Origin: Sphaerolaimus hirsutus
Lineage: Eukaryota; Nematoda; Chromadorea; Monhysterida; Sphaerolaimidae
Length of the DNA stretch: 64,000 nucleotides
Reading direction: 5' to 3'
Assembly: GCA_964036195.1 (NCBI GenBank)
Contig: OZ038450.1
Span: 4,094,701-4,158,700, forward strand
The position numbers and the translations under genes were made by a program. The notes beneath the pieces were generated by a model that worked only from the letters and a program-made list of their open reading frames with translations, searched no databases and was not told the origin of the DNA. Below, piece by piece: positions 7,607-45,400 of this stretch. The first letter of the stretch is position 1. Each line of letters starts with the position of its first letter.

Positions 7607-10600
7607 ATGGCTGTTCCCGGACCGACTCAAGATCTTGAAGGGATGATGGCAAAAAGGAGGGTAGGTTTTGTACAGGTTGTGATGATGATTTAACATCGAT
7701 ATCGCATATAGTGTATCGATGCGTCGATATCGATGTTTTGTAATATCGAACATACAGCTTGAGTGCAGATTTTGAGGGGGTATTTCGATGGAGAAAATTA
7801 GTTTTTCGAGGAAATACGACCTTAACGTGAATTGCACGCACAACAAACAGCACCACGTTTCCCAATTCGTATTTACAACAAAACGCAGATGGAAGTAGGC
7901 CGGAAGCTGGCGGAGGCGGTCATGCGCGGCACCATGATCGGCGCCCACTACCTGGTGCCCATGCCGCACGTTGACAAGTGCCATGTCAAGTGATAAGAGT
8001 GGAGAAAAGTTGCGACTTTTCAAGTGTCAAGTGTCGCGTTATAATTAAAAATAATAATAGATAGCAGCGAGATGGATTTCAGCTGGGCACTCCCCACTTA
8101 TCACGCAACTTTTCACACTTCAATTCACTTATCATTCGTCACTTTTCAACGTGTCGCATTGACGCCCGGACCGACTCGGCAAGGACAGGGGCGCCCTAGT
8201 CGTGGCAGATTCTAAATCCATGCGCGAACACAAAGAAAGGGCTAATCGGAAGCCTGGCGCGCTGGTCCCACATCCAATTCGAAAATAAGGGGCTAGTAAG
8301 GCGCTGGACACGAGAAATTGTGCCTACATAGTTTTCTATCGAAATGTCGCATAGATCAGCTTTGAACGCACTTGAGTGTACTGAAATAGGTGGGTTATTT
8401 TTAATGCCGATAAACTGTAGTTGACGGCCACCTCAATCCGGTAAACTCAAGTTCAGGTTAAGCTGATTTGTGAGTTCTCAAAATTTCTGCCGAAAACTGT
8501 GTACCGATTCAACCATTGTATTGGGCGCCTTGCGTGCGCATTACGTTCAAATTGGATTTGGCCCCTGGTTGGCGACCGTTTGGCACAACCGGATGACGAT
8601 GCCTATTTTTGGCAGCAAAGGAGGGCCAGTAGGAAATTGTCTGAGGTTACGGCCGGCGGACCTACGATGGGTCAGCGGGGAGGTTTTTTGGTATTATTAT
8701 ATCTAGCTTTAAGGTTCATTACCTAATTGTAGGTTCATTGCGTGGTCTTGAGCGATTATTTTACACAATAATAACCTACCATAACTCTCAGAATAAACCC
8801 CCGCAACCCCGAATACCCCCTCCCTTGATATCCCCCTTAACCCCCCCCCCCACAATCAACCCCCCCTCCCAGACCCAGTAACGCACCGAGTGCCGCTGGG
8901 TTTCGGCGCGGGCGGCCGGCGCCGACTGCGCAACGCTGCGGCGGCGGCTGGCGGCGCGCCCCTTGTAGCCGCCGTGTTCCAAATGGTCGACGCCAAGGCG
9001 GCCACCGTGCAGCACATGTCGACTCGCATGGCTGAGCGGCTGGTCGACTCGCTACATGCTGTGATTACGGATAGGTCGATTGATTGTCGGGGGTCGGGGG
9101 GTTGATTGGAGATGATTGGTCAATTGCGATCGACTGAAGGATTGTTGTATTTGTCAACAGCGTATTTTGGCTCTAGCTTTAAAAGTCGATAAGACCAAAA
9201 GGTCTATTTCGAGAAAATTGCCCAAAGGTTTCATTTCCAATTATCTGCCTGTGTAAAAAAGAAGACACCACAAAAAAAACTGCTGCAACTTTCCCTCACT
9301 ACTGTTCACAATAAATTTAATGTTATCTTTTACATTAGTGTTAAAATTTACACCGCAGATACGCCAAATCAGTCGCAGGGGCAGCGGACGGCTGCAATAT
9401 TGCCCAAAGTGGGGCGATGCCCGGAAGTAAGGAAGACAGGTGCCACTCCCAGATCCTGTAAAATGCCATGTAAAATGTAAAATGTCATGCAAGTGTCAAA
9501 AATCATGATAAACTCCTGGAAAATGGCAAACGTACGTTGCCATTTTGCAGGGAATTTTAGATGACTTCCGACGCTTTGTATTACATTTGACATTTTACAT
9601 GGCATTTTACAGGGTCTGGGACTGCCCCAGGGAGAAGTTGGTCAGCGCCGCCGCTGTGGTCAATCTGCTTGACAGCCTGCCACCAAATTTGCCTACAAAT
9701 GTTCGTTTCAACGCCGTTAGAGTGCAATGCTTTTGTCCAAGTTGTTAAGGCGTGCAATTTTTTTAATCTAAGTTGTTAAGGAGTGCAATTGCAATGCTTT
9801 TATTTAAGTGGTTAAGCAAAGATAAAATTTGTAGGTTTATTTAAATATTGCGCACGATAACGATTGCTACAATATTTGAAAAGTTTGCTGGTGAATTTTG
9901 TCATAATTCACTGAAATGCTGAATTCAGATTGGGGACATTATCATTTTTGAACACATGTATTTTTTGCAATTGAATACCTACCTAAGTTATTAAGATGTT
10001 ACGCCAATCATATTGAAACTGAGATTTCGCTCCAATCGTGAAAGATTTTCAAGGGAACTGGTACGTAGTATTTATTCCTTGCAGCGACCATCATTTATAC
10101 AAGTCGAAAACATTCTGCAGATTGTTAAATAGCCGAAGAAAACCCTCCCAATGTTCTACGCGGTCATAATTTCAGATTCAGGACACAATCAAACAAGCCA
10201 CATCGGAAAGGCGCCAATTGACATTGGCCGAACTGCGCGACCTGCTGCCCCACCTGGCTGGCCGAGTGGCCGTGCAGGTCAGTGTTGCAAAAACGTGTTT
10301 ACGTTTGCCCGAAATACCCGGGTATATTGGTATATATCCTTATGTTTACGTTTTTACAAAATACTGTTACGTTTTCCTGGCCGAAATACCCGGGTACCGG
10401 AGAAAACGTAAAAACGCTTAAAATTTGGTTGCACGTACCCAAGATTCTATCAAATCTGTTAAATGACAGCTTTTCTAAATGTGTATACAATGCACATAAA
10501 ATGTACATTTAGGTATATGTTTAACATCAATTGACTTAGCAGAGGTCATAAATTTGTATCTTATAGGTAACTGGGGATACTGATTAATTTTCATGATGGT

Positions 10601-17068: not shown

Positions 17069-20000
17069 TCAGCACGCGCCCTTCATGTAACCCTCGACAA
17101 AAGAATCCCTCTCATTGACCCGATTTCTCATTTTCAGCGCGGTGCTATAAGAAAGTTCCCCCTTCAACTCAGACGACTCAATCCATTTCATTTGCTCCCT
17201 GTTTATAGCAAAAGCGAGTTCCCGATTGTTTCTCAGGGAGTTCCCGGTGCTTTCTAATGCGGCGTCGATAATTTTTTCGGCATTTTCCGGCCCTGCGCTA
17301 ACTAAAGTGTCGATGCACGAATAGTAGGCGGGCATTTTCATGGCCATGCAGTCTTTTTGGTACTTTGCCTCGTACAGCTGGAAAAATCGAGTTTTGGTTA
17401 AGTTTTGTAATGATTGTGTTTGGGTGGGCAGAAAGTGTGGGAAGAATTGAGGAATTTTTTATTTGAAAAAGAATTTTGGGAATTATAATTGATTTTGTTT
17501 TCTGATTGTAAGAAATTTTGTTGTTTAAACATTTTGTTTTGTGAAAGAGCCTGAGAAAATGATGTCCGATTTGGGCTATTTGGGCGCTTGTAATCCTGTT
17601 CTTCAGCGGAAATTTTTAGGATAATATCAAAAATGTTTTGGAGTCTTCGTGAGGGTCAAACATGTGGCTCGAATCCTATAGCAATTCGAAAAATTCTGTA
17701 ACAAACAACAACTTTGGTTTGAGTTGCAGTAAAATAAAGCTTGAGTAAAGTTCCAACCAGTTAACGCTTTAGCGCAGAACACAAATTTCTGTCAAGTCCC
17801 AATGCACCTACAAGTGTCAACCGACCATACTTTGCACCAACTTCACCAAAAAAATTATCTCCAAAATATGAATCCGTCAACTCACCCTATGCGCATCAGA
17901 CGCGAATCCCTTCGGATCGCGTTCGAAACAGTCGCCGACAAAATCTGCTGGCTGGTCATCATTTCCACTTCTCCTGCGGCCACTTCTACAAGAACTGAAA
18001 TCTCTCCGGTTTTCCCAGCCGAGTTTTGGCGTGATGCCAACACAGGTGCTGCCCCGCCGACCCTCGTACCAATTGCCTGGGTGTTTAGGTGGACAAATAA
18101 TATTTATTTATTTTTAGATGAGCAGTGCAGTGCCCTTTTTGCGCGGAAAATGCAGTGTGTACCTACTGATTTTACTCAACTGTATACAAAGTGGACGTTT
18201 TTTGCTGAATAAAGTCACCTGAAGAGTTCTGCACCAAACCACTCAAAGTGAGAGCATGTTTTTCACGTGACGGAAATATGATGGGCAAAATGATTTACAT
18301 TCGGTGGAATACGGTGGATTTCATTGGTCAGTGTGTGGCCATATCTTTAATTACGAGTAGATACATATTTCCAGTGCCCCGCTACTTAAATATGTAAATA
18401 TTTATGTCCTATGATATGAGTTTTTTCATGACTGAAAAAATTATATGAAGGCGAATCGAAATTTCTATGAAACTTTGTAATTTTTAGTGTTTCGTGAAAA
18501 AAAATTCCAGAACAGATTTAGGTAGGCAAATTATGATGAGAGGTAATAACAAGTATACTCGACGGACCGCAAGGTATGCGCCCAAAATTATTCATGTCTT
18601 GGTCGATAACGCGCGAGCTGGGCACTTATGTACCTATACACTTTCACAAAAATATAAATATTTTTTTCAAGAAAAAGGCGGAGTCGCGTACAAACAGGGA
18701 ATGTATTTTCCCGTCATGTTTTTTCTTTTTTTTGTGGAATTATTTTTATTTGATTAATGATGACGTCATGATGGAGTGTTTCCTTTAGAAAGATTCATAG
18801 TATGCGTTCCGCCGAGTATACTATTTTTGCATCCGAAAACGCGTCAAAGAATTTCAACCCACGTTGATCGAATGTCGATGTGGAGCAGTTTTCCCTGGGA
18901 TCAAACAAATCTCTGAAGTATTGCTGCAGTTTTGATAATGGCTCCGGTCTGCACACTCCGCTGCCAGATGAGCCGCCGCCCGACCCGACGCCAGTGCAGC
19001 AGCTGAATTAATTTTGTTAATTGACTTCGATTTAGGATACCGTATTTGCTTGAATAATCCCCCTGGGGGATGTCAAACTCGTCAGACTTTTTTGAGGGGG
19101 AACTAATCGAGGGGGGGGATTATTCGAGGGGGATTATTATTTCGTCAACAATTTCAACCATGTTTCTATCAACTTATTTGATGAAATATGCTTTATTCAC
19201 CTGAAAACGTGCCATTTTTGTTCAATTGGGCACAATAAATTGAGCAAATCTCCTTAAGGGGGGGGGGGGTTGGTTCGAGGGGGGGGGGAGATTATCATTT
19301 CCTCACTCGTCTTACAGGGGGGAATTATTCGAGGGGGATTTTCGAGGGGGGAATTATTCAAGGGGGGAACTATTCAAGCAAATACGGTGTATATGTTTTT
19401 AGGAGCAATTAAGGAGAGAGGGGGGTTCAGTTGAGGAGCCCAATTCCCATTTTCAGCTGAGCAGTATTTCGCAATTTTTCTTCAATAATTCGATAGATTC
19501 AGTTACTTTATTGACCCCTCCCGTTAGCCACACTCATGCACTTGACATTTGACAGGGGATTGTACTAAACTCCTGACATTTTGCATTGACAGTTGACATT
19601 TTACAGGGTCTGAGAGTGGCCCCTGGTGGCAGTTCTGAGCCCCGTAAAGTGTAAAGTCAAGTGAGACGTTTTTTATTACAAAAATAAAAGTTTTTATTAT
19701 TTTACTGAAATTTTGACACTTGGCGCCAAACATTTGACACTTGCCCCTTACACTTTACAGAGCTCAGAACAGACACAAAAACCCAAAATCCACCAACCCC
19801 CATGATTGTAAACTTATAAACATCACCCAGAACTCACAGAACACCTTGAGCCACCTGAGTGCGGGGCACTTGTTTTGCCAAGTACCGGCGCATGGCGTCC
19901 GTGTAGTTTGGCACCTGCCATTTACTTGGGCGCACTCCGTTTCCAGGAACGGCAGCGACGCGTTCACGCCGTATTTTGGCACGCAGCATCTGAGAGTGGG

Positions 20001-22545
20001 TGGGGATTTGGGATTTGGGATTTGGGCTTGGGTGGGGATTTTTTTTCATAAAATTTAATCAGGGAAATACGGGATGTTTTTCTGACAGAGTTTTGCAGAC
20101 CCGCTGATATTTAGCAATTTTATTCGATGGAGGAACTGTCAAAAATATTATGTATTCAAATCATCACTTGAGCAAAATTTGAAAAGCGAAATTTTGATAA
20201 AATTCGCTCCCTATCATCAAATTTTTAACGCCTGTCGTGTGAGTAACCATATGCATGTAAGATCATCGAAATTCCATGTTAAAAAAGTGATTCCATCACC
20301 AGGTGCCACCCCTAGAGCCTGTAAAATTCACTGTGAAATGTAAAATGTCATTCAGTGTCAAAAACCATGCAATATTCCCTGTGAAATAGCAAACACCTTG
20401 ATCATTTTACATGACTTTTGACACTTTGCATGACACTTGACATTTACAGGTCGTTTTACGTGTTCTGTAAGTGCCACCAAACATGTCAAAACTCACTGCA
20501 CGCCGGGCTGCATGATGCACATGCCGAACTGCCAGGCGCCGTTGCTGCACTGCTCCAAGCCGGTCACGTAGCGGTCGCATTTTCCCCCCAGACGGGTGCA
20601 CTCGTTCTCTTGGAAGGGACTTTCTTTGCGAAGTTCCACCAGTGAGGCCAATGGCGCGTTTTTGGGCACACAGCATCTGGGGTGGGGATTTTTTTGTTGG
20701 GGGGGGTGAATTGGGGTAATTGGAGGTTTACGTAAATTTACTGGAGGCGAAAAGCGCGTTGAAAACATACAGCACAGATTGTGTGGTTTTCTTTATTTTA
20801 GATACTTTTTTTGCACAAGAAAAAAGGAACATTCGGTCCAAATGTCGTACGTTCAAACTTACAGACTGATTTCTACCGTAGGACCAATTATGACTGAAAA
20901 ATTCTAGGTACTGATCGATTGCCAGATAATTCAAATCGTGCTGTATTAACCCGAAAGAAACGGTATTTACTTTCCGCGCCAGTCTTCCCAATGCATCGAT
21001 CTTTGAACTTGCGAAAATGACCCCCCCCCCCCCCCACTCACTCAACCAAGGGCTGCCTGATGCACTTGCCATACCTCCACTGGCCATCATCGCACTTCGG
21101 TCCGTTCGAAATATGCCTACAATCTCCGCCCTCCACCATGCACAGGGTCTCCTGGTAGGGCCGGCTGGCGTCGATGTAAAAGTTCTTCCTGCAGCACTTG
21201 ATGTCGACGCCCTGGCCCAGGCAGCTGGCGTAGTCGATGTTGCCGTTGGTGCACGGGTCGGACTTTATGTCTTGACATCGACCGCCTTGAATCAGGCACT
21301 TTGTCGACTGGAAGGGCACGTTTCTGTTTTTGTCGCCGAATAAGTCGTCTTGGATGCAGCATCTGGGATTGGGGGAGTTATGGTGTGGTTTTGGGTTGAT
21401 TTTGGGGATTTTTTGTGGGGCTGGGCTTTGGTGTTTACTTGAAGATACTTTTGAATTTGATATTTGGGCAGTTAAAATAGATTGATTCAAATTAAAATAG
21501 GTAAAATAGGTAGGCATGTATTTACAATTTGAACACTGTTTTCATCAGATCTAGTGTGACAGTGTTACTACTCTTGGTTTGGTTGACATTCACAACTGAT
21601 GGAGCACTTCATTCAGAAAACTTATTGATACGGCCCGCGAGTTTTTATACATTTGCCTGAAGAGAAATATGACGTCCTGACCAGGGTTGGCAAAATTTCA
21701 GAAAATAATAAAAATAAAATAAAAATAAAATGGAAAATGTAAGAATAAAATAAAATAAAATAAAATGGAAAATTTCAAAATAAAAATAAAAATTGTATAA
21801 AAATTCGAATTTTTGTAAAATTGTATAAAAATTTATATTTTTTGTAAAATTTGTATTGTGTTGCTTGAGTTTATACCTGTCTATTTTGGGAACTGGGAGC
21901 TGTACTGAGCCTGTGAACTGTTAAATGTCATGTGAAATGTCATGCAAAGTGTCAATTGTCATGACAAATATAAAGTAAAGTGTGAATTGTCATGACAAAT
22001 TTGTCATGACAAACGAACCAAATTTCACTTGAACATTTTTCATGTTTAGGTCTAATGATAACATTTTGTTGGCCTTGCATGCAAGATTTGATTTTTTGTA
22101 AAAAAATTGTAAAATTTTTGTAAAATGGTTCCATTTTTTTTTTTATTAACATTTTGGAATAAAAAAAAATAAAATGAAACAAGAATAAAATTAAAATAAA
22201 ATACATTTTTATACATTTTTTATACAATTTGTATACAAATGATTTTTTATAAAACCAACCCTGGTCCTGACCATTTTGCAAATTTATCTAAGCCATGTGA
22301 AATTTCTCAATGTTTCCAAAGATATTCTTATATATTTAAACATTTCGAAAACCTTTGACTAACTCAACGTCATCCCTCTGAGTAGGGCACAAATCCTCTT
22401 CGAAATGTCCGCCCTTGCACTTTCTGGAGTTTTTCCTTTGACACTGGCCGAATTTGTCGGCGCAGGGTGCCTCTTGGTACGTTTCCTCCGAGATGACAAA
22501 TGTTAATGAGCCGCTAATTAGCAGCAAAACTTGTAGATACAACAT
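17069..22545 (-). CDS. Secreted protein with five tandem six-cysteine (beta-defensin-like) modules
   Basis: Exons: 22545-22364 (ATG, signal peptide LYLQVLLLISGSLTFVIS), 21362-21042, 20676-20497, 19989-19855, 19002-18863, 18076-17886 and 17377-17069 (TGA), about 485 aa. If the donor at 18863 is skipped, exon 5 runs to a stop at 18795, giving about 341 aa. Five modules follow C-x6-C-x(6-9)-C-x(7-9)-C-x(4-8)-CC, most preceded by P(F/Y)xET/N and containing GG before the second Cys. This is the beta-defensin cysteine order, and the exact spacing x6-x7-x9-x8-CC is shared by modules 1 and 2. Introns 1-4 all fall just before the CC of a module with the same phase, so exons could duplicate as units. 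The C-terminal part (DFVGDCFERDPKGF, KDCMAMKMPAYYSC) is unrecognised. Extracellular; role in defence is inferred only. Confidence 0.72.
19040..19389. mobile_element. MITE with TIR ACCGTATTTGCTTGAATA
   Basis: ACCGTATTTGCTTGAATAAT at 19040 is mirrored by ATTCAAGCAAATACGGT ending at 19389. Next to each end are G- or C-rich blocks (CCCCCTGGGGGA; GAGGGGGGGATTATTCGAGG). It belongs to a widespread family with copies at 45265, 50464, 56356, 59088 and 62213. It lies in an intron of the modular Cys-rich gene. Confidence 0.65.
19530..19765. mobile_element. Two abutting introner-family copies
   Basis: The right end of one copy (TTTTACAGGGTCTGAGAGTGGC near 19600) is followed at once by a complete small copy: GGCAGTTCTGAGCCCCGTAAAG (19617) to CTTTACAGAGCTCAGAAC (19765). 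The second has near-perfect arms around an A-rich loop. Both lie in an intron of the modular Cys-rich gene. Confidence 0.6.
20303..20478. mobile_element. Introner-family element
   Basis: GTGCCACCCCTAGAGCCTG on the left, preceded by CCAG; TTCTGTAAGTGCCACC on the right. The arms carry TGTAAAATGTCAT-type words and their complements. It is inside an intron of the modular Cys-rich gene and does not coincide with its splice sites. Confidence 0.6.
21690..22262. mobile_element. AT-rich nested element pair
   Basis: The outer arms are AAAATAAAATAAAAATAAAA-type sequence (CCAGGGTTGG at 21682 and CCAACCCTGG at 22256 are complementary ends). Between them lies an introner-like copy (21900-22020: CTGTACTGAGCCTGTGAAC, ATGTCATGCAAAGTG). 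This looks like one element inserted into another. Confidence 0.45.
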
Positions 22546-26510: not shown

Positions 26511-27334
26511 CCAGGGGCCAGTCCCAGACTCTGTAAAATGCCCAGTAAGATGACAAATACTTATCATTTTACATGGCATTTTACATGACTTTCAACATTT
26601 TGCATGACATTTGCCATTTTGAAAGGCATTTTACATCACTTTTGACACTTTGGTAACATTTGACATTTTCCAGGCCGTTTTCATGACCTTAGACACTTTG
26701 CATGACATTTGCTTTTTTTGTTACTTCGCTGACATTTGACATTTTTATGCCGTTTTCATGACCTTAGACACCTTGCATGACATTTGACATTTTCCAGGGC
26801 ATTTGAAATGCTTTTTGACACTTTGCATGATATTTGACATTTTCCAGGCCCTTTTCATGACTTGAGAAACTTTGCATGACATTTACCTTTTCATGACTTT
26901 CGCCACTTTGCATGACATTTGACATTTTCCAGGGCATTTGAAATGCCTTTTCACACTTTGCATGATATTTGACATTTTCCAGGCCCTTTTCATGACGTGA
27001 AAAACTTTGCATGACATTTGCCTTTTCATGACATTCGCCACTTTGCATGACATTTGACATTTTCCAGGGCATTTGAAATGCCTTTTGACACTTTGCATGA
27101 TATTTGATATTTGACATTTTCCAGGCCCTTATAATGACTTGAAAAACTTTGCATGACATTTGCCTTTTCATGACTTTCGCCACTTTGCATGACATTTGAC
27201 ACTTTCCAGGGCATTTGAAATGCTTTTTGACACTTTGCATGATATTTGATATTTGACATTTTCCAGGCCCTTTTCATGACTTGAGAAACTTTGCATGATC
27301 TTTGACATTTTACAGTCTCTGGGATTGGCACCAG
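26511..27334. mobile_element. Introner-family element expanded by internal 135-142-bp tandem repeats
   Basis: The ends are GGGCCAGTCCCAGACTCTG (26515) and CAGTCTCTGGGATTGGCA (27330), with CCAG on both sides. The interior repeats the block starting CCAGGGCATTTGAAATGC at about 26794, 26929, 27064 and 27206, a unit of 135-142 bp in four copies. All copies consist of CATGACATTTGACATTTTCC family words. Reading it on the minus strand gives a long Lys/Cys/Met-rich frame that is only the repeat translated. Confidence 0.75.
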
Positions 27335-27579
27335 CCCGAAGCAAATGATGCAAGTTTTGCGTCACGCTAAAATTGGTCGGGGAAATTTGTTCAAGTGCTT
27401 TCCCATTGGCTCGCTTAGAATTCGAGAGTGAGACTTCGGGCAGATGCGACGGTTTAAAGAGTTGTCGCTGTCTGAGAGTTCTATCTTAGTTTCTGCTTGA
27501 ATAGGTCCTCCCAACGTATTCTTAAGAGAGAGTTGACTTTGAGGTGTATTTTCTGAAGCCGAAAAGTGAAACAGGAGAA

Positions 27580-30500
27580 ATGAATGAATCTACAATGGCC
27601 GAGTTTGATCAAACAACAGGGCGGCTGCACTCAATTGGTAATTTTGGCAATTATCCAACAAGTGACCAAACTTTTCCAGCATTCTTGACTACCACACAGA
27701 TCTGCTGCCACACAATCCAAATGGCTGGAGCGACACTGAAAAGTTCCTTCAACAAGTCGTACGCGTACTGCTCGAATACATTCGCACCATGAACGACAGG
27801 CAGTCGAAAATACTCGACTTCAAACATCCGGACGAATTGAAACAGATGTTCGACTTTTCCATCCCCGACGAGGCGGTGAACCTGGAGCAGTTGATGGCCG
27901 ATTGCGACAAGACTCTCAGGATTCAATTCAGAACTCTGTCAAGTGATGAAAAGTGTCAAGAATTATAAGAAGTGACAAATTGTGCCTACACACATGACAA
28001 ATTGTGCCTACACCGTGACTTTTTTTCAATTTATTCAATTTGAATGATTTGATTTAAACTTGAATTTAAATTAATGAAAGTTAAAATTTGAAAACTAAAA
28101 CACATAAAGCATACAAAAAGAGTAGGTTGGATGTCGCCATGTCGCCATTTCAGTTTTCACATCGGTCACTTTGAAAAGTAGTGTGTGTAGGGCCAATGTA
28201 TGTCAAGTGTAACGATGACAAAAAAAGTTTCGAAAATTCGAAAATATTTTCGAATTTTCGAATTTTTTCATAATTTTCGAATTTTTATTCCACCCCTGGA
28301 AAAAACACTTAAAATCGATTTATTTTTTAAAAAATTCGAAAATTCAAAAATTCGAAAATAGTTTTCGAATTTTTCAGGGAATTCAAGGTGACAAAAAGCG
28401 ATCTTAAGTTCAGCGTGCTAAATAAAGCGACAATTGATATGCGGTGGGTCTGAAAAAGTCTCATGTAACGAAAAAACAAACATTAAAAAACATTGAAATG
28501 GCATCCGCGGGGGCAGCGGCGGGCGGACTCCATCTATTTATGACATCTATTCAGGAATGCAGGGAGCCGCCCAAACAATTAGAACCGCGGCGCTCTACTT
28601 CCGCGGATAGAGACTCCAGTCCATCAAAAAAAAATCGCTCGCGGGTCTTCCGAGGGGCAGTCACACAAACATTTTTGAAAGCATTCTGCCCCAGTGAAAA
28701 TGGTGCAAACTGATCCACATAAGTGTTTCTACCATTTGTCATGTTAAAGTGATATGAAATTGTCATATCATGCTTCACTTAAAGTGAAATTAAGGTTAAA
28801 AGGGGCTCCAAACATTAAAACAGTCCAAATACTGTGTTTTAAGCTTCAAATTCAATCTTTTTTTCTGAAAAAATTCGAAAATTACCAAAAAAGATTCGAA
28901 AATTCGAAAATTCAAAAATAAAATTCGAAATTCGAAAATTCATTTGGGAAAAAATTCGAAAATTCATTTTAGAAAAAAACACTTAAAAATTTAAATACTT
29001 TTTTCTGGGAGGTTTGCCATCGTTAGTCAAGTGTCAACAAAATTCCACATGAAATTTTCAACTTTTCTTGATTATTGGCGCTTTTCTTCTAGTTTGACAG
29101 GGTTCGGAATTGTCCCCAGGTACCAGGTGAAAACTGGCCACCCCAGATTTATGAATCAAATCTCGTGCGGACTGGATTTGGTGTCTATGGCTGGAGAGTG
29201 GCTTACCGCCACTGCCAATACAAATATGTGCGTGAGTATATTATTTAGTTGAGGTGATCCGGTTTAGTGATTGATAATCGTTAGAAAAATGACTGCATTA
29301 GTCAACACTGCAAGTAAATGTAATTCAACCAGGGACCAGTCCCGAGCCCTGTAAAGTGTGAAGTTGGGTGCCGTGTAAAATGTCAATCAAAACAAACAGA
29401 CTTTGTTATTATACTGAAATTTCGACACTTTGCCTGACAATTGACAAATTTGTATTTAAAATATGACATTTAACGTGATTTGACACTTGACTTTACACTT
29501 GACAGGGTTCGGCGCTGGCACCACGCGTTGTTACTCTGATAAATCACGCCTGGAAGTAATCGAAATTGTAACACTGCGCGGATGATTTTCATTTCAAATG
29601 GACCAGAAAAGGATTTATTTTTAGCATATAAATAAGTAAATAAAAAAAAAGAAATCTTGTTACGCGTAGTTATTATAACTTCTTCTCCCCTCCTCGTCCC
29701 GTTCTGACCCCCCAAAAGCGAATGCAAATTTATCCATCATAAACCATTCCATTTCCAAGACAGATTACGGTAGGGACACAAATGCGAAAAGGTTCCCAAG
29801 AAAAGCCCATGGCTTGCGCTTCGCTGTAGTGAATAAATTACCATAACGCCGACTCAAATGGTTACTCATTACTTTAAAATTGATAGTTTAACAAACGCAG
29901 GTTCACCTACGAAATCGCCCCAGTGTTCATTCTGATGGAGCGTGAAGTTGGCAATAAAATGATTTCACTAATCGGCTGGGAAAGCGGCGACTACATTTTC
30001 GCACCAGGTAAAACTGTAAATACAATCAAACACAAAAACCGCACAGAAAATGTGTCGCTTCACACAGGGCCGAAATCAACTGATATGGAATAGTTTTTTG
30101 CACAGTGTCAAGTGACAATTCTCACACAAAGGTCATCGATCACGTGTTTTGTATAAATAAAATTGCGCAATTATGCTGCGATTACAGCTCGGGCATAAAA
30201 TTGATCGGGTATAAAATTGATTTTGGGCATATATTAATTACAGATGAATGGATAAATACGACATTGTTATTTCAGTCAAAGAAAGCTTAGATGCAGAAGT
30301 TTCTTGTGTCCAAACCTCATGAGTTTATTTAAATCGTACTGGGAGTTATGAATTTTAGCACAATTTTTTCAATTATGCGCTGTAAGTTAGGGTGTAAAAT
30401 GAAAAAAATTTGCGCCAAAATTCACAACTTCTAGTACAATTGAATAAACTGATGAGCTTTGGACACAAGCAACATCTGCATGTGTGCTTTCTTTGACTGA

Positions 30501-33500
30501 AATTACAACGCCATATCTTTATCCATTTACCTGTAATGAATTTTAAGCCCAAAAATCAATTTTACGCCCAGTCAATTGTACGCCCGAGCTATAATTGCAG
30601 CATTACCAGTAAACGGATCAGTCCAAAAACGAATCCTGATTACTGATGTCGGCAAGCATTTCTTCGACTGGCGGGTTGTGTACGATAGTGTTCTAAGTAA
30701 CTCCGCTCCCAGCACCTGAAAATCTAGCGCTTGCCCGCCGCCGCAGGGGGCTCCATTTCGAACCTGTACGCGGTGAACGCCGCCCGGCACTGGTTCATGC
30801 CGCGCTGCAAGCCGCTCGGCCTGTGCCGCTGCCCCGCCCTGTGCATGTTCACATCTGGTGCCACTCCCGGACCATGTAAAAAGTCCTGTAAAATGTCAAA
30901 TTTCATGCAAGGTGTCAAAAGTCATGTAAAAGGTCTTGTAAAATGTCAAATGTTACGCAAAGTGTCTAAAGTCATGTAAAGTGCCCTGGAAAATCACGAA
31001 CGTTTTTGCATTTTTCCAGGGCATTTTACATGACTTTGACACTTTCCATCACATTTGACATTTCACATGGCTTTCAATACTTTGCATGACATTTTACATT
31101 TTCCATGACTTTAGACACTCTGCATGACATTTGACATTTTCCAGACCATCTCACATGATCCGGGAGTGCCCGCCAGAAGAGTCGCACTATTCGATGCGCG
31201 GCGCGGCGGCGGTGACCGGCTTGGGCACGGACAACTGCATCGGCGTGCACACCGACCACACCGGCGCCATGGTGCCTGAGGCGCTGGAGGAGAGCATCGT
31301 TGAGGTGAGATGAGATTGAGAGGGTGGTGCTTGGTTGATGGCGCCGGATCGAATTGGACCGACTTTTGCGTATTTTTTAGTTCAATTTGTTGTACTCAAA
31401 AATGTTTTGTCAGGAGAAAAGTGGTAAAAAGTGCTTTTGTCAGTTGTTATTTCGGATATTTTTTTTGCAAAATTCAATTATTATTACGTAATTTCCCCTG
31501 GTTGAATTTTTTGTCGAAATAATCAACAAAAAAAATCGAAAATGATTTCTAGTTCCATCACACGACGGGGAAACTAGCAGTCGTAAAGGAAACCGCACTC
31601 CATCTATCAATGATAATTTTACCAATTCTCAATGCCCTCAATCATTAAAAAACCCCAAAAAATCACCAAAAAAAAACAACAACAAAACCCGAACCCCCCC
31701 CCCCCCCAACGTGCAGGCGAAACGGGCGGGCATGACGCCCTTCTTCGTGTGCGCCACGGCCGGCACCACCGTGTACGGCGCTTTCGATCCCCTGCACCAG
31801 ATAGCGGACATTTGCGACCGCCACGGACTGTGGTTCCATGTCGATGTGAGTACTGCGCATACCTATCTATATATTGTGGTGCTGCGACGAAAATTGATTG
31901 ATGTCGAAAAGGAATCACTATTTCCATGTGCATTTGAACATGGATTCGCCAACTATAACCTTTTGGAAACCAGTCGAAGCAGTTGACATCGGGTGTCATC
32001 AGATGTCAACTGGGCCGACTGGTTTCCAATTTCCATAAGGATTGCCGCGTGTACACTTGAAAATGCACCTGCGACCTAAATTGAACTACGGTAAAAAACG
32101 TTGGCATCGAAATAATTTGACACCCAGTGGTGTATTTATGTCACCAATGATTCGGGCACCAAAAAACTTCGCCCGCAAACAAAAAAGCGGCGCTCGGCAG
32201 CACATGGGATAAGCATTCGTTAGTACGCAACACGCACACTAGGCCGTTAGGCGCATAATTACATATACTCTGGCGCCTTAGACCCTACGCACATTAGTTG
32301 ACAACGACAACAAATGTCAACTGGTACCGATCCCAATTTAAACGACGTCCGAGTGCAATATTTTGAAATCTTGCAAGTAAAGCCGTAACGGTGAAAAAAT
32401 ATTGCGTTATATGTACAATGTATATACACAGGCGGCACAAGGTATTTATACAATAATGCGTAGTGGTATAACACTCGTCAGCGAGCTTTGAATTGGGATG
32501 GGACCTGCGGGCGCAGGCGGCGTGGGGCGGCGGGGTGCTGCTGTCGCGGCGGCACAAGCAGCTGCACTCTGGCATCGAGAGGGCTCGCTCGGTCACCTGG
32601 AACCCGCACAAACTCATGGGCGCCCTGCTCCAGTGCTCCGCGTGTTTCATCAAACAAGATGTGGGTGGGGCGGTTTTTTTCTGTTGTTGGCATGTTGCCA
32701 ATGATGGATGAGTGTTGGGGAAATGAATGCGATGCTCGTATACACAGATCGAATCTATTTTTGGTCGACGCAAATGGCATTTCGAACTGTCGTAATCTTC
32801 AAGTTGCTGTTGCTACATAGCTTTTTCAAGCGGCGCATTCAAAAATATTCCCAGAAATTTTGCGAGCGCACATGTTTCACCATCAAGATGCCATCCTCAA
32901 AACCAACTTGCCCACAAAAAGACAATAACAAACTTTCACATCACCCAAAAAACAACAACAACAACCCCAAACCAGGGTCTCCTATTCGAGACGAACCAAA
33001 TGTCAGCCGACTACTTGTTCCAACAAGACAAACCCTACGACGTGAGTTACGACACGGGCGACAAGGCGATGCAATGCGGCAGGCACAATGACGTTTTCAA
33101 GTTGTGGCTCATGTGGCGCGCTAAGGTTCGGGGGGGGGGGGTTGGAATGAGGGGGGTATTTTGGCGTTGGTTGATATATTTGGTATGAAGCGAGGTCAAC
33201 TGTGTGAGCGTCAGTTATTAAGTTTTATTTTTTTGTCATTTTCGGATTGGTCGATTTTTTTTTGTATTTTTGACACATTTTTCCGCGACGCACTTTTAAA
33301 AAGAGGCCGCTTTGGACCGGTAAAACGATACATTTACCGTATTTACTCGAATAATTTATCTGGGGTATTATTTTTTTGTCAGGACTTTTTGAGGTGGAAG
33401 TATTCAAGGAGCATTATTCAAAAGCGAGGATTATTATTCCATCAAAATTTCCAAGCATTTTCTATTAACTTAGGTAGGTAGTCCATGAAATATATTTAAC

Positions 33501-36024
33501 AATAATATAAACACCTTCCCGGTCACGTCCGGCACCCTATTTTTGATCGTACTTGTGACACCCTATCTCCAGTTCTAGGGCGCGCCAGAAGCTGAAACCT
33601 GGGGGAGGTATTGGTGCAACCCCCCTCTACTTCTCATGAATTTGGGGGGTCGCGGCGACCCCTCTCCGGGTGGGTCGCCCTAAGTGCAAAATTTTTTTTG
33701 GCTTTTTTGGTGTCCCACAGCAGGTCCGGCACCCGCTGATTTCTGAGCTCTGGGAGGGCTATAAATCTAAAATTTTGGGGATGTGTTACCAACACCACTC
33801 CCCTACTATACACTATTCAATCATGTGAGATTAACGTGAAAAATTTCTCAAAAATTTGCTTATTCTCCAAATAAAACACCACTCCCCAATAGGTGTATGA
33901 CAAAAAATTCACTTTTTGGAACTTTTTTATTAGACACTTGAAGAGATGGTTTACGATACTTTAAAGGGAAGGGTTTGATGTTTAAAGTTATGTAAAGAAC
34001 CATACCTCTAAAACGCATGCATTGTCAAATTTACTTGGGGGGAATTTCAAAGTGTAGATTTTGCAAATTTTTGTTCCTGCAATGATGTCATTATGATGTC
34101 ATAAAATTCGCCCTAAGTAAATTTTGCAATGCAGGCATTTTAGAGGTATGGTTCTTTACATAACTTTAAACATCAAACCCTTCCCTTTAAAGTATTGTAA
34201 ACCAGCTCGTCAAGTGTCTAATAAAAAAGTTCAAAAAGTGAATTTTTTGTCATCCATCTATTGGGGAGTGGTGTTTTTTTGGAGAATAAGCGAATTTTTG
34301 AGAAATTTGTCACCTTCATCTCACATTATTGAATAGTGTATAGTAGGGGAGTGGTGTTGGTAACACATCCCCAAAATTTTAGATTTATACCGCTCTCACA
34401 GCTCAGAAATCAGCGGGTGCCGGACCTGCTGTGGGACACCAAAAAAGCCATAAAAAATTTTTGCACTTAGGGCGACCCACCCTGAGAGGGATCGTCGCGA
34501 CCCCCCCAATTCATGCGAGGTAAAGGGGGGTTGCGCCAATATCTCCCCTAAGTTTCAGCCTCTGGGGCACCCTAGAACTGGGGATAGGATAAGAAGTAAA
34601 ATCAAAAAATGGGTGCCGGACGTGACCGGGAAGGTGTTTATAATAGGTATGACATGTACATAAAGGGGAATTTTTTCCGCACTTGTTTAGCATGGGAAAA
34701 TTATTCTGAAGTGGGAATTATTCTGAAGGGGGAATTATTCAAGGCTGGGATATTATTCGACCAAGTACAGTACATCACTTTTTCGCCCGACCCAATCCAG
34801 GGCACGATCGGCTTCGGCGAGCAAATCGACCGGCTCATGGCGCTGGCGCAGTATTTCGTGGCGCGCATCAAGGCGACCCAGGGCTTTGAACTGGTCGTCG
34901 ACAATGTCTGTTTTTATCTATTTTCGTCGCGAATGCGAATAAAAAGTGAAACCGGAAATTTTTGAATCGCAGCCGAAATTTCTGAATGTGTGCTTTTGGT
35001 ACGTGCCGGCCAGCTTGCGCAGTCTGGAACGAGACGAGAAAATGGCCAGACTGGAAAAGGTTGGACAGCTCACTTAAAAAACCTATTTCTACTCGTGTCT
35101 AGGGTGTCAAAAAAAATTTTTTATGGAAAACGGAAACGGATTTTTTTTTCAGAGGCCAGAAAAAGGAACGGCCAAAAATGTGCACTTGACGGAAAACGGC
35201 AAAAAATTTCAGCGGCCAGAAAACGGAAAAATGGGCCGGAAAAACGGAAACAGAAAAATTAAATTTGCACAGAAACAGAAAAATTTGCTGAAATTTTGAT
35301 GGAAAACGGATAAAATTTGCAGAAATTTTACTGGAAGTGGAAAAAATTTGCAGAAATTTTGCTGGAAACAGAAAAATTGACATAATTGACAATCTGCATG
35401 AATGTCTACCAGTTTGGCTTAACAGAAAACGGAAAGTTAAGCCAGAAAAAGGTAAAATGAGGCAGAACAATGGAAAATTGAGGCGGAAAACGGAACAAGG
35501 CAGAAAAACTGGAAATTGAGGTGGAAAACGGAAAAAAAGCGGACAAACTGAAAATTTAGCCGGAAAACGGAAAATGAGCCTGAAAAATGGAAAAAGTGGC
35601 CGGAAAACGGAAAAAAAATTTCAGCAGCCGGAAAACGGAAAAAATCTGCCTGCGGAAAACGGAAACGGAAATTTGACACCGTACTCGTGTCTATCCATAA
35701 CCACTAGATTTTTTTCAAACCCACAGAGTCACAGCCAGATTTTTTTCCCGGTCGAGTCGGTCGCGAAGCCTAATTAGCACCTATCAAATGACTACAGATC
35801 CAATCCAGGGCACCCCCTAATAAACCGCCATGACACACTCGCAGATCGCACCGAAAATAAAAGAGCGTATGATGCAACGCGGCACATTGATGGTCAGCTA
35901 TCAACCCGACCACCACAAAAAACGGCCAAATTTTTTCCGTTTGATTGTCAGTAATCCAGCGATTACTAGAGAAGATTTGGACTTTGTCGTCGATGAAATT
36001 ATCGATATTGGCGGCGATTTGTGA
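27580..36024 (+). CDS. Gad1: Glutamate decarboxylase (GABA synthesis)
   Basis: Twelve exons, about 508 aa: 27580-27637, 27700-27919, 29120-29227, 29901-30007, 30747-30857, 31177-31304, 31717-31845, 32517-32660, 32976-33125, 34801-34905, 34973-35059 and 35845-36024 (TGA). All phases agree. It is a PLP enzyme converting L-glutamate to GABA. Motifs: [49 protein letters not shown], and [11 protein letters not shown] with the PLP-binding Lys; also [20 protein letters not shown]. The length equals insect Gad1 (about 510), and there is no long N-terminal targeting region like vertebrate GAD65. Intron 1 is only 62 bp. Intron 2 (27920-29119) lacks a GT donor in the best-fitting model (CTCAG|gattca). 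Intron 5 (30858-31176) is an introner. Introns 4, 7 and 9 hold MITEs. Expected in GABAergic neurons. Confidence 0.95.
27920..29119 (+). mobile_element. Glutamate decarboxylase intron 2, degraded introner ends
   Basis: The left end ATTCAATTCAGAACTCTGTCAA and the right end TTGACAGGGTTCGGAATTGTCC are complementary with mismatches, and the right end abuts the acceptor CCCCAG. The interior holds an AAAATTCGAAAATT-rich insertion (28220-29010) and extra unique sequence, so the introner has been lengthened by later insertions. Confidence 0.5.
29334..29525. mobile_element. Introner-family element in glutamate decarboxylase intron 3
   Basis: CCAGGGACCAGTCCCGAGCC then CTGTAAAG at 29330 is mirrored by TTGACAGGGTTCGGCGCTGG then CACC at 29522. 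It is internal to intron 3 (29228-29900) and does not set the splice sites. Confidence 0.6.
30170..30606. mobile_element. Foldback MITE, about 430 bp (copy 2)
   Basis: Sister of the element at 1665-2095. The left end is TTATGCTGCGATTACAGCTC then GGGC, and the right end is GCCCGAGCTATAATTGCAGC then ATTA. It has the same internal blocks (GAATGGATAAATACGACATT, GTCAAAGAAAGC). Located in glutamate decarboxylase intron 4. Confidence 0.75.
30858..31176 (+). mobile_element. Introner: inverted-repeat element that is exactly glutamate decarboxylase intron 5
   Basis: The intron begins GTGCCACTCCCGGACCATGT and ends ACATGATCCGGGAGTGCCC then GCCAG. The termini are complementary, and the arms are filled with TGTAAAATGTCAAA / TTTGACATTTTCC words. 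The exon join (MFTS|EESHYS) is the conserved enzyme sequence, so the boundaries are fixed independently by protein conservation. Confidence 0.85.
32312..32506. mobile_element. TIR element AACTGGTACCGATCCCAATT at the 3' end of glutamate decarboxylase intron 7
   Basis: CAACTGGTACCGATCCCAAT near 32315 is mirrored by AGCGAGCTTTGAATTGGGAT then GGGACC ending 32505. It is related to 5820-6018. The acceptor of exon 8 (GCGCAG at 32516) lies 10 bases beyond the element. Confidence 0.55.
33518..34640. mobile_element. 1.1-kb foldback element in glutamate decarboxylase intron 9
   Basis: CACCTTCCCGGTCACGTCCG then GCACCC at 33519 is mirrored by GGGTGCCGGACGTGACCGGG then AAGGTG at 34637. Complementarity continues through almost the whole length, for example AAAGTATTGTAAACCA against TGGTTTACGATACTTT, and GGTGCCGGACCTGCTGTGGG against its complement. 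No coding capacity. Flanking fragments of the CCGTATTT family lie at 33337 and 34690-34780. Confidence 0.75.
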
Positions 36025-36149: not shown

Positions 36150-37153
36150 GGTTGGAAAAAAACGTTTTTTTAACTCGATGTTTTAAAAAAAACACGTTTT
36201 TTTAAAGCTCCCAGATATGACCTTGTGTCAACATATATAGGTATATCAGACAGTGGCAATACTCTGTGATGTTATATACAGGGCCGTATCCAGGGGGGGG
36301 CGGGGGGGGCTGCAGCCCCCCCCTCCCGGGGCGAGACCAAAAAGTGACCGGAAAAAGCGACTTTTTCAACGTCAGCATAAAAAATTTTGCGCGCAAGCGC
36401 GCATTCTTCACCAGACAGAACGTATTATCATCGGATTTGCTCTATGTGGCCACAAATCATTATAAATACACTCAATGTTGTGTTTTTTTGCTGTTTTGTA
36501 TGTATATTTACATACATATACAGCATTCCATGGCGCTGACGCCAACGCCAATGGCGCCATGGCGTGGCGCCTACTAATGGCGCCAGCGCCATGGCGCCAT
36601 TCCGCCACTATGTAGCTAAAATTTTAGGGGGGGGGGGCTGAGCCCCCCCCCTCGTCGGCCTCCGTAAACAAGCAGCCCCCCCCCCCGCTCAAAAATCCTG
36701 GATACGTCCCTGGTTATATATGACCATATAATGTCTGTGGAGCCATGGGATAGCATTATAAGTGGTGATTTGTGTCAAAAATATCCATTTTTCGTCAACA
36801 TATCATTCGTATATCGCCTTATACTTGAATGTTCGTGACTTCAGGTAAAGTTTGGCACGGAATAGTGATCAAACAAGGTTATAAAAGGAGGTTGTTACCT
36901 TGGGAGTGAAGTTGCACACTGTGGAGGTTCATGGAAGCAACATATGACGGCTTATTAACCTATGGTAGCACATGGAAATGGATACTTTGATACTAAAAAT
37001 GCCACAAAACCAATGAAAACAACCACCAATGTCAATTTGTGTGTGAAAATGCGCGCGCAAAATTTTTGCAAAATACCTAGTGCTTAGTACTCAAAATTTC
37101 GGCCGATGTTTTTAAATAAAAAACGTTTAAAAAAAAACATCGGCCAACCCTAA
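36150..37153. mobile_element. TAGGGTTGG element with a nested GGGCCGTATCCAGG element
   Basis: The outer pair is TAGGGTTGGAAAAAAACG (36156) and AAAAAACATCGGCCAACCCT then A (37150). The inner pair is GGGCCGTATCCAGGGGGGGG (36280) and CTCAAAAATCCTGGATACG then TCCCTGG (36712), a later insertion. The inner element carries GCGCCATGGCGCC palindromes and AAAATTTTGCGCGCAAGC. Confidence 0.6.
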
Positions 37154-39573: not shown

Positions 39574-41439
39574 CTACCGACCAGCCAAACTCAATCGGAT
39601 GGCTTCCTCCAATTGGGCACTTTCAGAATCCTGTGCGTTTGCATTGCCATTTTCTGTTACAGGCACCCCAGTGCTCAATTTCACCCCAGTACCTGTCCAG
39701 GGTTCAACTGTTTTTGCCTGATTTTCAGTGGCGTTTTGGTCCTTGTTCTCTGACTTTTCGGGTTTAACCTGGATTTTGAAATGAGATGAAAATTTAGTCA
39801 TGTGTTATTTGTTGGATAGAAAGGGAAATGGAATGTGCACAATATGATCTCTGCCTGACATAGTTCGAACGGAATTTTAACAACAGTGTTCATAAGAACT
39901 TAGCGAAGCAGCCCGACGGTAGTTGACATTGTTGTAAAATATTATGTGTTTAAAGCTAATTTATCAGCTTTGAAAATTCCAGTTAAAAAACTAGTGTATA
40001 GGGTAAAATACCTTAAACATTTACCCACAATAGGAACCAAAACCAACTGGGTTCTTGATCAAAAACTCATCAGCTTCACATTTTGGCAACTGGCCAAGTA
40101 CAGCGAATACAGTATAACCTTCATTCTGCAGTTGATTGATGTACAAGTGTAGATAGGTATTGCTAATTAGTTGAGGCCCCTTTCTGGTTGAATTTAGATC
40201 AAACCACTGCGCCCCCAAGTGTCTAATTGCAAACCAATGCTCCCGCATGTTGCATACGTAGCCGCGACAGAACTTTCTGTGTGGAGGAATTTTATTTGGG
40301 TAGTGATGGTATGGTGGTATGAATTCTGAACATTACTCACGTTATGAACATTAAAGAAATGACGAAAATATACTATAGGACTACTTGAATGACTCCCCCT
40401 GTGGCCGAGTGACGAAAAAATAGCACCCCTTGAATATCCCCCCTCCGTAATAGACGGAAAAAATGCACTATACGTGTGTGTAGCTGAACTGGATCCATTT
40501 TTTTCAAATAAAGCTATCTCGAGTTTTACAGGCGACGAAAAAAGCACCTTCTCTGTGGAATAACTCCCAGTAAAAAAACAGACAAAAACTCCCTTCCTGG
40601 GAGGTATTATAGGATTTACGTGCACAGTCCAAAAATACGAGAACTGTAGATATTTCAGTGGCTGAGACGTGACGGAAACAACTTCCGGAAACAACCAAAA
40701 ACCTTTCCAAAATCGGAAGCAGTTTCCGATGGCTACTTTTACCGACCCGGCGGCGGGTTCGTCGGCGACGTGCTTGACGCTGGGGTTGGCCAGGGGCACG
40801 AGTTGCAAGTCGAACACTTTGAGCGCCTCGCCCATCACCTGCACGGAAAAGTAGCCGCTGTCGTCCATGTTTTGCGACGCGGCCGTGCCTGCGAATGTGT
40901 GATCCTTTGTGAATGGAAATGATAAGTGGAGTAAAAAAAAAGGTGCTGTCGGACTGGGGAAATTTCTGTGCACGTTTACTCCACCAGCGCGCAATTCAAC
41001 AGTGATAAGTGGATAAGTGACAGGTTAATTTTAACGTTTCCATATATTAATTTTCTTGGCACGTGTTCAACTTGTGTTACGGACTTTACTTATCACTTTT
41101 TTGGGTTCATGATTAATTGCGACAGGTACTTATACACTCGCCATTTGCACTAGGAAAAGTTGCGAAGTGCCAAGTTTCTTTAAAAATCTCGGCACCTCAA
41201 ACAGAATTGCAAGGAAAAACTACGCGAAAGGAGTAGACCGAATGAGCCCCTACACACGGGCACCAGAAGGAATACGGTAGCCAACCTTCAGTGGCGCCCA
41301 CTGCCCTCTCTTGTTCATCTAATCTGCGTGCAATTTCAGCCAAATCGACCGCGGTCAAAAGCGGCGCCTGTAATAACGCGTTCAAACAATGTTGCGCGCA
41401 CAAATTGCCAGACTGGTGTTCGAAGAAAATCACGTCCAT
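39574..41439 (-). CDS. ATXN3: Ataxin-3, Josephin-domain deubiquitinase, short form with one UIM
   Basis: Four exons: 41439-41286 (ATG), 40888-40747, 40276-40048 and 39768-39574 (TAG), about 239 aa, all phases consistent. The Josephin domain cleaves Lys48/63-linked ubiquitin chains. Visible active-site residues: Gln9 and Cys14 (EHQSGNLCAQHCLN), the His in MREHWFAIR, and the Asn in QWFDLNS. Other matches: NMDDSGYFSVQV and LPKCEADEF. The C-terminal exon is hydrophilic and ends with one ubiquitin-interacting motif (SAQLEEAIRLSLAG). Human ataxin-3 is 361 aa with two or three UIMs, a VCP-binding arginine motif and polyglutamine; here there is no polyQ and I see no VCP motif. A donor-like GTCGGT overlaps the stop, so a longer isoform is possible, but no further exon was found. 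Confidence 0.9.
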
Positions 41440-41849
41440 TTTTGCACTGGTGAGGGCTGAAAAGATTTGAGGTGTCCGGGAACTTTTGGAACACGTGAGA
41501 GAAATGCTGAGAGCTCCAGATTTTTTGTGACTGAAGTGGTTTTATTGTGACGTGCGGGAAATGACATTTTTGCTAACTTTAGCTTGGAGAAATCATTGTC
41601 ATCAGTTTGAATCATTGTCATTTTACACAGCCCATATCCTATCCACGTGAGTGAAAAAGAAAAGTTCAAGCAATATTTTTATAATTTTATTGAATCAGAG
41701 CAACATTATTGAGCGACAATGTAAAATAATCTAAAATTCCTTAATGAATAATCTAAAAGTATGCGCGAAATAACTAGTACGTCTAAATCGATCAATCAAC
41801 ATTCAACACCCAAGGCGACAAAATGTTTTTTTTTCAATGTTTAATATTT

Positions 41850-42423: not shown

Positions 42424-45400
42424 CTACAGGCAGTCCATCGCAGGCGTCACTTCGTTTTTATCGCGGTTTTCAGTGATCAGCTCAGATCGCACCTCACTGC
42501 TCACTTTTTTAATGGCACCATCAATTGCTGACATGAGATCAAGCCTATCGAGGCACAATTTGCGGCAGCCCTGAAATTTGGGGCCAGAAATCAAACTTCG
42601 ATCAAAAATTAGTGGGTTTTAAAAATGAAAGACCAACATTTAATAATTCTGTCTTTGAAAGATCCGGTGGAATAATCACAATTCCACTCGAAAGTCTCTC
42701 AATCCAAGAAATTAATGATGCGTGGCTATCAGCACCTGAAAGCACGAAGAACAAATACAATACAGTCCACTAGTTGACACCATAGATGTTAAAACGTATT
42801 TACGTTTACTCAGGGACGTAGCCAGGATTTTTGAGCGGGGGGCGGATTGTATACGGACAAGGACGTATCCAGGGGGGGGCGGGGGGGGGGGGGGCTGCAG
42901 CCCCCCCCGCTCCCGGGGTGAGACCTAAAAAATCCCGGGAAAAGCAACTTTTCCTATACATTTTTCATGGTAGGTGCAAAAAATTTCGCGCGCTGGCGCG
43001 TGACCTCCCCTCCAACACATAATTGTCAGCGGATCGGTCCCCGGTGACACAAATCCATGAAATTGTGTGCCCTTCGCTGTGTATGAACGTGTATTTCATA
43101 CATATACAGCGGTTTCTGGCGCTGGCGCCAGCGCCAATGGCGCCATGGCGTGGCGCCTATGAATGGCGCCAGCGCCATGGCGCCATTCCGTCACTATGTA
43201 GGCGAAATTTCAAGGGGGGGGGGGGGGCTGAGCCCCCCCCCGTTCGCCGGGCTCCGTAAACAAGCAGCCCCCCCCGCTCGAAAATCCTGGATACGTCCCT
43301 GTATACGGAGCCCGGCGAACGGGGGGGGCGGCGCCCCCACCCCCTAAAATTTTACCCCTGTTGTAGGGGAATGGCGCCATGGCGCTGGCGCCATTCGTAG
43401 GCGCCACGCCATGGCGGCACTGGCGTTGGCATTGGCGCCAAAACAACAGTATACGTCTGTATTTTACAGACATATACAGCGACATGGACAGAAATTGAGT
43501 CCATTTTCACTGGCTTTTAGGCCGCGGAGACTGGTCAGCCAAAAAGATATGTTGTGAAGGGAGAATGCGCGCTTGCGCGCAAAATTTTTTCAAACTGTCG
43601 ACAAAATCGTTGTCTGAAAGTGCCATTTCTGGCACATTTTTTGGTCCGGCCCGGGAAGGGGGGGGGGGGGCGGCCGCCCCCCCCCCTGGCTACGTCCTTG
43701 CGTTTACTCGATAAATCCGTATACTCGAGTACTGCGTAAATACGTTTATAGCAGAGTTGTTAAAATACCGTTATTTTTGGAAAGCGTAAGCGTAAATACA
43801 CTTTCCAAATTTTGAGTATGGATACAGAAAGCGTAAGGTATTTTTAAAATACCTAGGAAAGCGTAAAAAAAGCGTAAGCGTAAAAACTTTAAGACGATTT
43901 TTCTCAGTGAATTCTTCCGAAATCAAGCTCTCAGCAATATTTTTCAGACGTCCACTTGGTAGCCTGCCCTTAGATGCTGATAGCAATTCATTGTCAATGA
44001 CACTTATTAAGTCATATTCATTTTCTAACTCATGCTGTTGACAACGACAACATCGTCGTCGGAATCCATTTTTGACCCCAAAATTTCTAATCTAAAGCCA
44101 CGACACAGTGTTATCATGACATTCATATTGCGACACAATTTGTACATGTGTCGCTATTTCCAGTGCAATACTGCACAGTGCACACATACTCATCTTATTT
44201 TGGTACGCAGTTTTGTTCACTTTTTTTCCGTGGTTTGCCACTTTTTCAAAAGTGTAAAACCGGACCATGTGAAAAGCTTTTTTAAGCTTTTAGTACCCGG
44301 GTATTTCGGCCGGGAAAGCGTAATAAGGCGTAAGGGTATTTTATGAAAGCGTAAGCGTAAGTATAAATACCCATTTACCCGGGTATTTCGGGTATGCGTA
44401 AATACGCTTTCGCAACTCTGGTTTATAGTTCCCTCCGAAAAAATACCAGAACTCACTTACTCGCGTACTGTTTGAAAGTACGCTAGTACCTAAAACGTAT
44501 TTCGGGTAGGTTTTTATATCAGATTTTTCAAGGCATACAATGGGAAAAACATAAAAAATAGGGGAAAATGGTAAAAATTTCGTATATAAGCAAATATATA
44601 GTCAAGAATGGCTGAAAATTGGCAAAAAGCAGATTAACTGTGAATTTGAAGGTTTAAATGGACAAAAGTATGAAAATTAGTAATTTTGGGAGACAATTGT
44701 AGCAAAATTTCGCTAAAATACTCACTTTTACGTTTTCCAGATAAAAAGTATTTTACTCACGTTTACTCACGAGTAAAAGTAAAAAGATTTTAAACGTTAA
44801 AACTTAACGAGAAAATTAATGTTTTCTGTACTAAGGGGCGAGTAGACAATACATACTGTACCTATTCCTTGACTTTAAAAAAAGTTTGTACTTTGTACTT
44901 TTAACTACTGTGGTTGACACCGGAGTAAATTAAGCATACTCGTCAACTTAACCTATTCACCGCATTTCAGTTGACAGCCGCTTCATTGTCAACTGAAACC
45001 ACACACCAAATACGAATATGTACATTATACAAACCTTGAGCCAGCTCATAAGAAATCCATCGGTGAACTGAGCTGATAAAATCATCACCGGAACCAGACA
45101 TTCCCGCGGCTAAAACGTCGCTTTGCAGTCGTCCCGAGAGATCCGCACTCCTAAATTGACAGAAAAGGCCCTTTATAAAGATATGGGTTGAGACGAGTTT
45201 TACTGACAGTAACTAAGTGAAGACACGATTTCAAAACGGAGGTTTGACGTCTAGTACTAAAAATAGCTGAAATACAGTATTTCCTCGAAATACACCCCTC
45301 AAAATGGACACCATGAACTGATAAACCCCCCCTCGAAATACCCCCCCCCCAAAATTTAGTGTATAGAGAACGTAAATGACAAAGGCTGCGGTTTGTCATC

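Follow-up and report, generated by a model that had tools for sequence, protein, structure and literature searches.

The window (the whole stretch analysed, 64,000 nucleotides) carries on its plus strand, at about positions 27500-36024, a glutamate decarboxylase (GAD) gene, which is single-copy in the genome. Its spliced protein was nearest to nematode GADs: Litomosoides ranked best (71%) among the 120 matches listed, none of them an identical protein, and the top 39 bore nematode labels, bar two that bore no label (P0012 and P0023). In a tree of 53 tips the sampled Rhabditida formed its sister group (support 80), Nematoda being supported at 100; the organism is accordingly a nematode, probably one outside Rhabditida. 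The region of intron 5 is organized as follows, with exons numbered as in an earlier, sequence-only reading of this DNA:

30747-30857, plus strand: GAD exon 5, the 3' end of which is the left target duplication, CTG at 30855-30857
30858-31173, plus strand: foldback (MITE-like) element of 316 bp, starting GTGCCACTCCC (predicted 5' splice site) and finishing GGGAGTGCCCGC
31174-31176, plus strand: right CWG target duplication, CAG, also the predicted 3' splice site
31177-31305, plus strand: GAD exon 6

Intron 5 (30858-31176) consists of the 316-bp element and one copy of the 3-bp target-site duplication, with no other intron sequence left. Its context (slashes here and below marking exon, element and duplication boundaries) is exon ...TTCACATCTG / GTGCCACTCCCGGACC ... 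ATCCGGGAGTGCCCGCCAG / AAGAGTCGCAC, and the exons join as F-T-S-E-E-S. Together with its immediate flanks (30850-31190) it forms a single long hairpin (DNA MFE -95.8 kcal/mol); a chance hairpin was rejected, since 100 shuffles averaged -33.7 (sd 4.1, z -15) and none was as good. Complementarity between its arms (30862-30934 and 31096-31168) is 82%, and units of roughly 19 bp recur to make up the intron, oriented oppositely in the two arms. Against the family end motif, with its own seed excluded each time, the left end scored 32.4 bits and the right end 11.6 bits, the latter being low because of one extra base; the best position across 20 simulated windows, taken as baseline with an earlier and closely similar matrix, reached 17.0. 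The sequence-only reading had described intron 5 as an inverted-repeat element base for base, its ends coinciding with GT and AG. The hairpin bears out the inverted repeat, but the last three bases, CAG, are best assigned to the duplication, with the element stopping at 31173; GT is thus provided by the element and AG by the duplication, the 5' splice site being the only one that the element carries.

The same reading had held that the exon junction is fixed by conservation of the enzyme and is no gene-model artefact, a claim that was confirmed. No indel of four residues or more occurred at the junction among the 120 homologues listed, and the query aligned there free of gaps with 13 other animal GADs. 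Retention of the intron leads to a stop after 40 codons and to a frame shift (319 = 3n+1). When donors from -40 to +140 and acceptors up to +40 were searched, 26 GT-AG choices kept the frame open, and the only one restoring the conserved protein exactly was the one exact to the ends. The gene-model artefact was rejected on the strength of the gap-free alignment and of this single exact choice.

GTGCCA is a weak donor under the usual consensus, and many copies of the family carry a better-looking GTAAAA 18 nt inside, where the consensus has CCTGTAAAATG. A true donor at this inner position (GTAAAA or similar) would leave six added residues, so that copies would not be removed exactly; this may hold for GAD intron 2 and for the copy at 9440-9630 (see below), and codons are added by some introners described in the available part of PMC9860276. 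Yet at GAD intron 5 the inner donor leads to an immediate stop and is absent from the 26 open choices. By sequence, an immediate stop would also arise at 55337-55509, and six extra residues in an ING zinc finger or a laminin EGF domain (see below) would be expected to break conserved folds. As an explanation of intron 5, an inner donor appears very improbable.

The genome (348 Mb in 762 contigs) was searched with the 319-bp sequence, as the sequence-only reading had proposed, and 40 scored candidates out of 5,700 first-look ones yielded at least 96 matches, on both strands. With up to two mismatches, the 29-base element end CAGGTGCCACTCCCAGACCCTGTAAAATG had 4,297 matches (2,201 + 2,096) and its reversed control none; these are ends rather than elements, because both ends of one element may match. 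Viral contigs contained no exact match to the family end. Forty-nine unique end-exact GT-AG copies gave the consensus CAG/GTGCCACTCCCAGACCCTGTAAAATGCC...GGCATTTTACAGGGTCTGGGAGTGCCCC/CAG, with intron lengths of 98-778 bp (median 194). Its ends are inverted: one displays GGGG (GGGGCAC) beside the duplication, the other GTG, and the C-rich end lies directly before the acceptor CAG. The family is short and present in high copy, with inverted ends, a target duplication and no coding capacity, and is as such a MITE family.

Target-site duplications were examined in 90 paired copies (30 exact-end loci, 20 stretches with the best matches to the GAD element and 40 more exact-end stretches). The flanking triplets were CAG on both sides in 29 copies, CTG on both sides in 20, CTG left with CAG right in four, CAG left with CTG right in three and others in 34. 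CWG therefore stood at both ends in 56 of the 90, and 49 of these 56 pairs were concordant (28.7 expected). Removal of copies with shared flanks left 81, with CWG at both ends in 51, of which 45 were concordant against 26.6 expected (P 5e-8). This comprised 36 of 40 CWG pairs in the 60 copies picked by an exact end and, in the 21 copies not picked by end pattern, nine of 11 (6.5 expected, P 0.10). Since CWG was concordant and the adjoining columns stood at expectation, the target duplication is 3 bp, CWG; a 4-bp CWGG duplication, considered earlier, was dropped once further copies had been paired.

At intron 5 the two copies of the duplication differ (CTG left, CAG right), and one base must therefore have changed, silently at GAD if this happened in the left copy (TCA/TCT, both serine). 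The pair CTG and CAG could also be an extension of the inverted repeat rather than a duplication, an alternative rejected for the family by the concordant pairs (45 of 51); for the intron 5 copy itself, the duplication reading needs the one base change. The same state recurs where a family copy interrupts a transposase gene (L121, see below).

Many copies of the family are clearly not introns. Among 84 end-paired copies with enough flank, 35 displayed GT-AG in neither direction, so that copies arise without being introns. This bears on a mechanism put forward for fungal introners, in which intron copies are reverse-spliced and so multiply through RNA. The end-to-end match of copies and introns would agree with such a route, but the inverted ends, the CWG target duplication and the 35 copies without GT-AG all argue against it; we regard it as extremely improbable.

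Other copies also lie in conserved proteins that are restored on their removal. Twenty spliced translations, chosen among paired copies by long open frames, were searched against Pfam, and in six a domain with a family score above the curated cut-off spans the junction:

L045: PHD
L086: GATase_7
L061: Carn_acyltransf
L092: Reeler
L078: KxDL
L099: EGF_laminin, where the best Pfam stretch lies downstream and the crossing of the junction comes from structure comparison

Among the others, L093 (Peptidase_C78) merely touches the junction, L094 (haem peroxidase) starts beyond it, L088 (PAN) and L062 (PI-PLC-Y) scored under the cut-off, and ten of the 20 had no Pfam match. Three alignments with solved structures were free of gaps at the junction:

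ING4: YCVCKQ^VSFGEM aligned to YCLCHQVSYGEM
laminin beta-2: CECKQ^NVVGR aligned to CRCKPGVVGR
carnitine octanoyltransferase: NFTLST^SFLGY aligned to NFVLSTSLVGY

These three junctions are consequently fixed independently, as at GAD. Family copies would coincide with introns at both splice boundaries at GAD and in these six of 20, splicing being predicted from the sequence.

Joined flanks of the 49 GT-AG copies were open on both sides over at least 60, 90, 120, 150 and 180 nt in 37, 31, 23, 16 and 11 copies, respectively. With permuted right flanks the corresponding means were 32.9, 25.2, 16.7, 11.7 and 6.3, and the observed values were reached in 79, 19, 15, 107 and 46 of 2,000 permutations. 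Open frames of at least 120 nt on either strand were found in 26 of 49 spliceable and ten of 35 non-spliceable copies; the two groups did not differ significantly in open frames (rank test, P 0.08) or in flank GC content (0.508 versus 0.480, P 0.11). At exact ends, the triplet adjoining the GTGCC end was CAG in 205 cases versus CTG in 156 (P 0.011).

Taken together, these results make it very likely that intron 5 arose from a non-autonomous foldback DNA transposon (MITE) that inserted into a GAD exon. A copy would have entered the coding exon at a CWG site, with duplication of three bases. Its end starting with GTGCC would then serve as 5' splice site and, beyond its other end, the duplicated CAG as 3' splice site, and a cut at CWG/GTGCC.../CAG/ would take out the element with one duplication copy and bring back the original codons. 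Use of these sites by the spliceosome is suggested by the sequence, and a single base of the intron 5 duplication would have changed since. The introner interpretation of the sequence-only reading is thereby upheld by a genome-wide repeat, a CWG target duplication and conserved domains restored at other copies.

Alternatively, an old intron may have occupied this site, a transposon landing inside it and the remaining old intron being lost later, so that the ends coincide only secondarily. Older introns do harbour family copies, for instance at 29330-29524 in GAD intron 3. However, the same would have to be repeated to the base in ING, laminin, carnitine acyltransferase and other genes, always with CWG on both sides, and such a history appears very improbable. 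A weaker indication against it comes from annotated relatives, where exon-sized gaps end within 1-2 residues of introns 3, 4, 7, 8, 9 and 10 and none does so at intron 5. Under a MITE insertion, relatives would be expected to be without intron 5. The genome yielded no empty allele; for the GAD of relatives, a search of genome contigs returned 21 loci, in bacterial records, and one of viral contigs returned none, and nothing on GAD intron positions in nematodes was found in the literature searched.

One of the described systems that the family resembles most is NuwaI, a Harbinger-related (PHIS) group with CWG target duplications and ends usually starting with GGG; the portion of that report at hand records it from 16 animal genomes, no nematode among them (PMC4482050). 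The present family likewise displays a CWG target duplication and one end starting with GGG (GGGGCAC). Unlike NuwaI as described there, its other end starts with GTG, its host is a nematode and a transposase is not tied to it. The donor would have arisen at that end through a T replacing G at its second base. We lean towards a NuwaI-type Harbinger MITE that, in a nematode outside Rhabditida, turned into an introner by GG becoming GT at one end, with the CWG preference supplying AG, and seeded introns genome-wide, which would make it the first introner in Nematoda. Within such a reading the CWG preference gives AG in the right orientation, so that an insertion into a coding exon would be spliceable at once. 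A Harbinger/NuwaI-type transposase would have moved the intron 5 element.

The genome displayed at least 163 matches to DDE_Tnp_4, many with near-identical scores. In three copies (L120, L121 and L122, stretches of 3-4 kb) no transposase bounded by family ends was found. The L120 gene is apparently interrupted by ordinary introns, a possible reason for the TGA stops that were counted. At L121:3678-3875 (G000:C1:28876200-28880200), a family copy interrupts one of the DDE_Tnp_4 matches, a Harbinger-type transposase gene, the ends being CTG/GT...CAG/ with exons in frame on both sides.

Introners with features of DNA transposons have been reported (Gozashti et al. 2022, PMC9860276), and in the part of that study available the family shares with them a non-autonomous nature, introns matched end to end and a target duplication. 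As in the type of its Fig. 2C, the 5' splice site lies in the element and the 3' site is co-opted; that type stems from an alga, has 4-bp duplications and lacks terminal repeats, in contrast to the nematode host, the 3-bp CWG and the long inverted arms found here. Introner elements of Amoebophrya, in the sections at hand of PMC7789003, also form hairpins and have short direct repeats (3-5 nt) that overlap their exon boundaries, but they occur in a dinoflagellate, mostly as non-canonical introns and without family-specific repeats, whereas GT-AG and one conserved end sequence are found here.

As to age, 44 of 51 copies compared matched another over at least 80% of their length, with a median best identity of 85% and a maximum of 93%. 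The best near-full-length match of the GAD copy among the 40 scored candidates was 78% identical. To go by these identities, the family appears to have been active more recently than the GAD insertion. The qualification of the intron gain as recent thus suits the family, with identities up to 93%, and is doubtful for the GAD copy.

Introners are a leading candidate source of bursts of intron gain and are already known as a kind; as far as our searches reach, what is new is the family and the phylum. In the text available of a survey of 3,325 genomes, introners occurred in just two animal groups, and the 835 animal and land-plant genomes yielded two groups, both animal, copepods being named (PMC9860276). 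No nematode introner was found in the available text of the literature searched on introners and nematode intron gain, and a study of the latter discusses missing source sequences in the part at hand (PMC9169325). The family combines thousands of element ends with a clear target duplication and target genes that are conserved, and would offer an animal system for direct tests of intron birth: alleles with and without a copy, the splicing of newly inserted copies, and the conversion of an ordinary transposon end into a splice site.

Further copies in the window were located by a position matrix built from the window's own copies, which returned end pairs at 606-803, 9437-9631, 20300-20480, 26512-27334, 29330-29524, 30855-31175 and 55337-55512, and single ends elsewhere (e.g. 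61904). With GAD intron 2, they are:

606-803, no strand assigned: family copy with CAG at both ends, away from exon ends
9440-9630, plus strand: second likely GT-AG introner, CAG/GTGCC...CCCC/CAG/, in-frame exons on both sides
20300-20480, no strand assigned: family copy within an intron of a minus-strand gene (read from open frames)
26512-27334, no strand assigned: family copy with a long internal array and CAG at both ends, neither end being GT in the CAG direction
27920-29119, plus strand: GAD intron 2, CAG/GATTC...CCCC/CAG, with family-like ends
29330-29524, no strand assigned: family copy within GAD intron 3, not at the intron ends
55337-55509, minus strand: third likely GT-AG introner, CCCAG/GTGCC...GCCCC/CAG/, in a Cys-rich open frame with in-frame exons on both sides

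The gene around 9440-9630 had no match in Pfam and PDB searches, nor that around 55337-55509 in a Pfam search, so homology does not fix their junctions. GAD intron 2 scored 9.3 bits at its left end (27917, weak) and 28.7 at its right end (29119), and from its sequence is probably an older introner of a related subfamily. Either it is a GA-AG intron, or splicing starts at a GT 18 nt further in and adds six residues; if spliced at the GA end, it is a non-canonical intron, and GA 5' splice sites account for up to 40% in some introner families covered by the available part of PMC9860276.

Two family copies stand end to end at 19530-19779, their ends abutting at 19623/19625 with CCTGG/CTGGTGG in common at 19623-19629. 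Pfam searches identified a Josephin domain and a WD40 repeat in minus-strand open frames at 41197-41541 and 51576-51971. A different inverted-repeat family, marked by long runs of G and of C and by a common GAGCCCCCC/CGGAGCC motif, is present at 36268-36723 and 43114-43443, and GAD intron 9 contains, at 33503-34645, a large nested foldback of another repeat family, with several inverted pairs of up to 188 nt at 94%.
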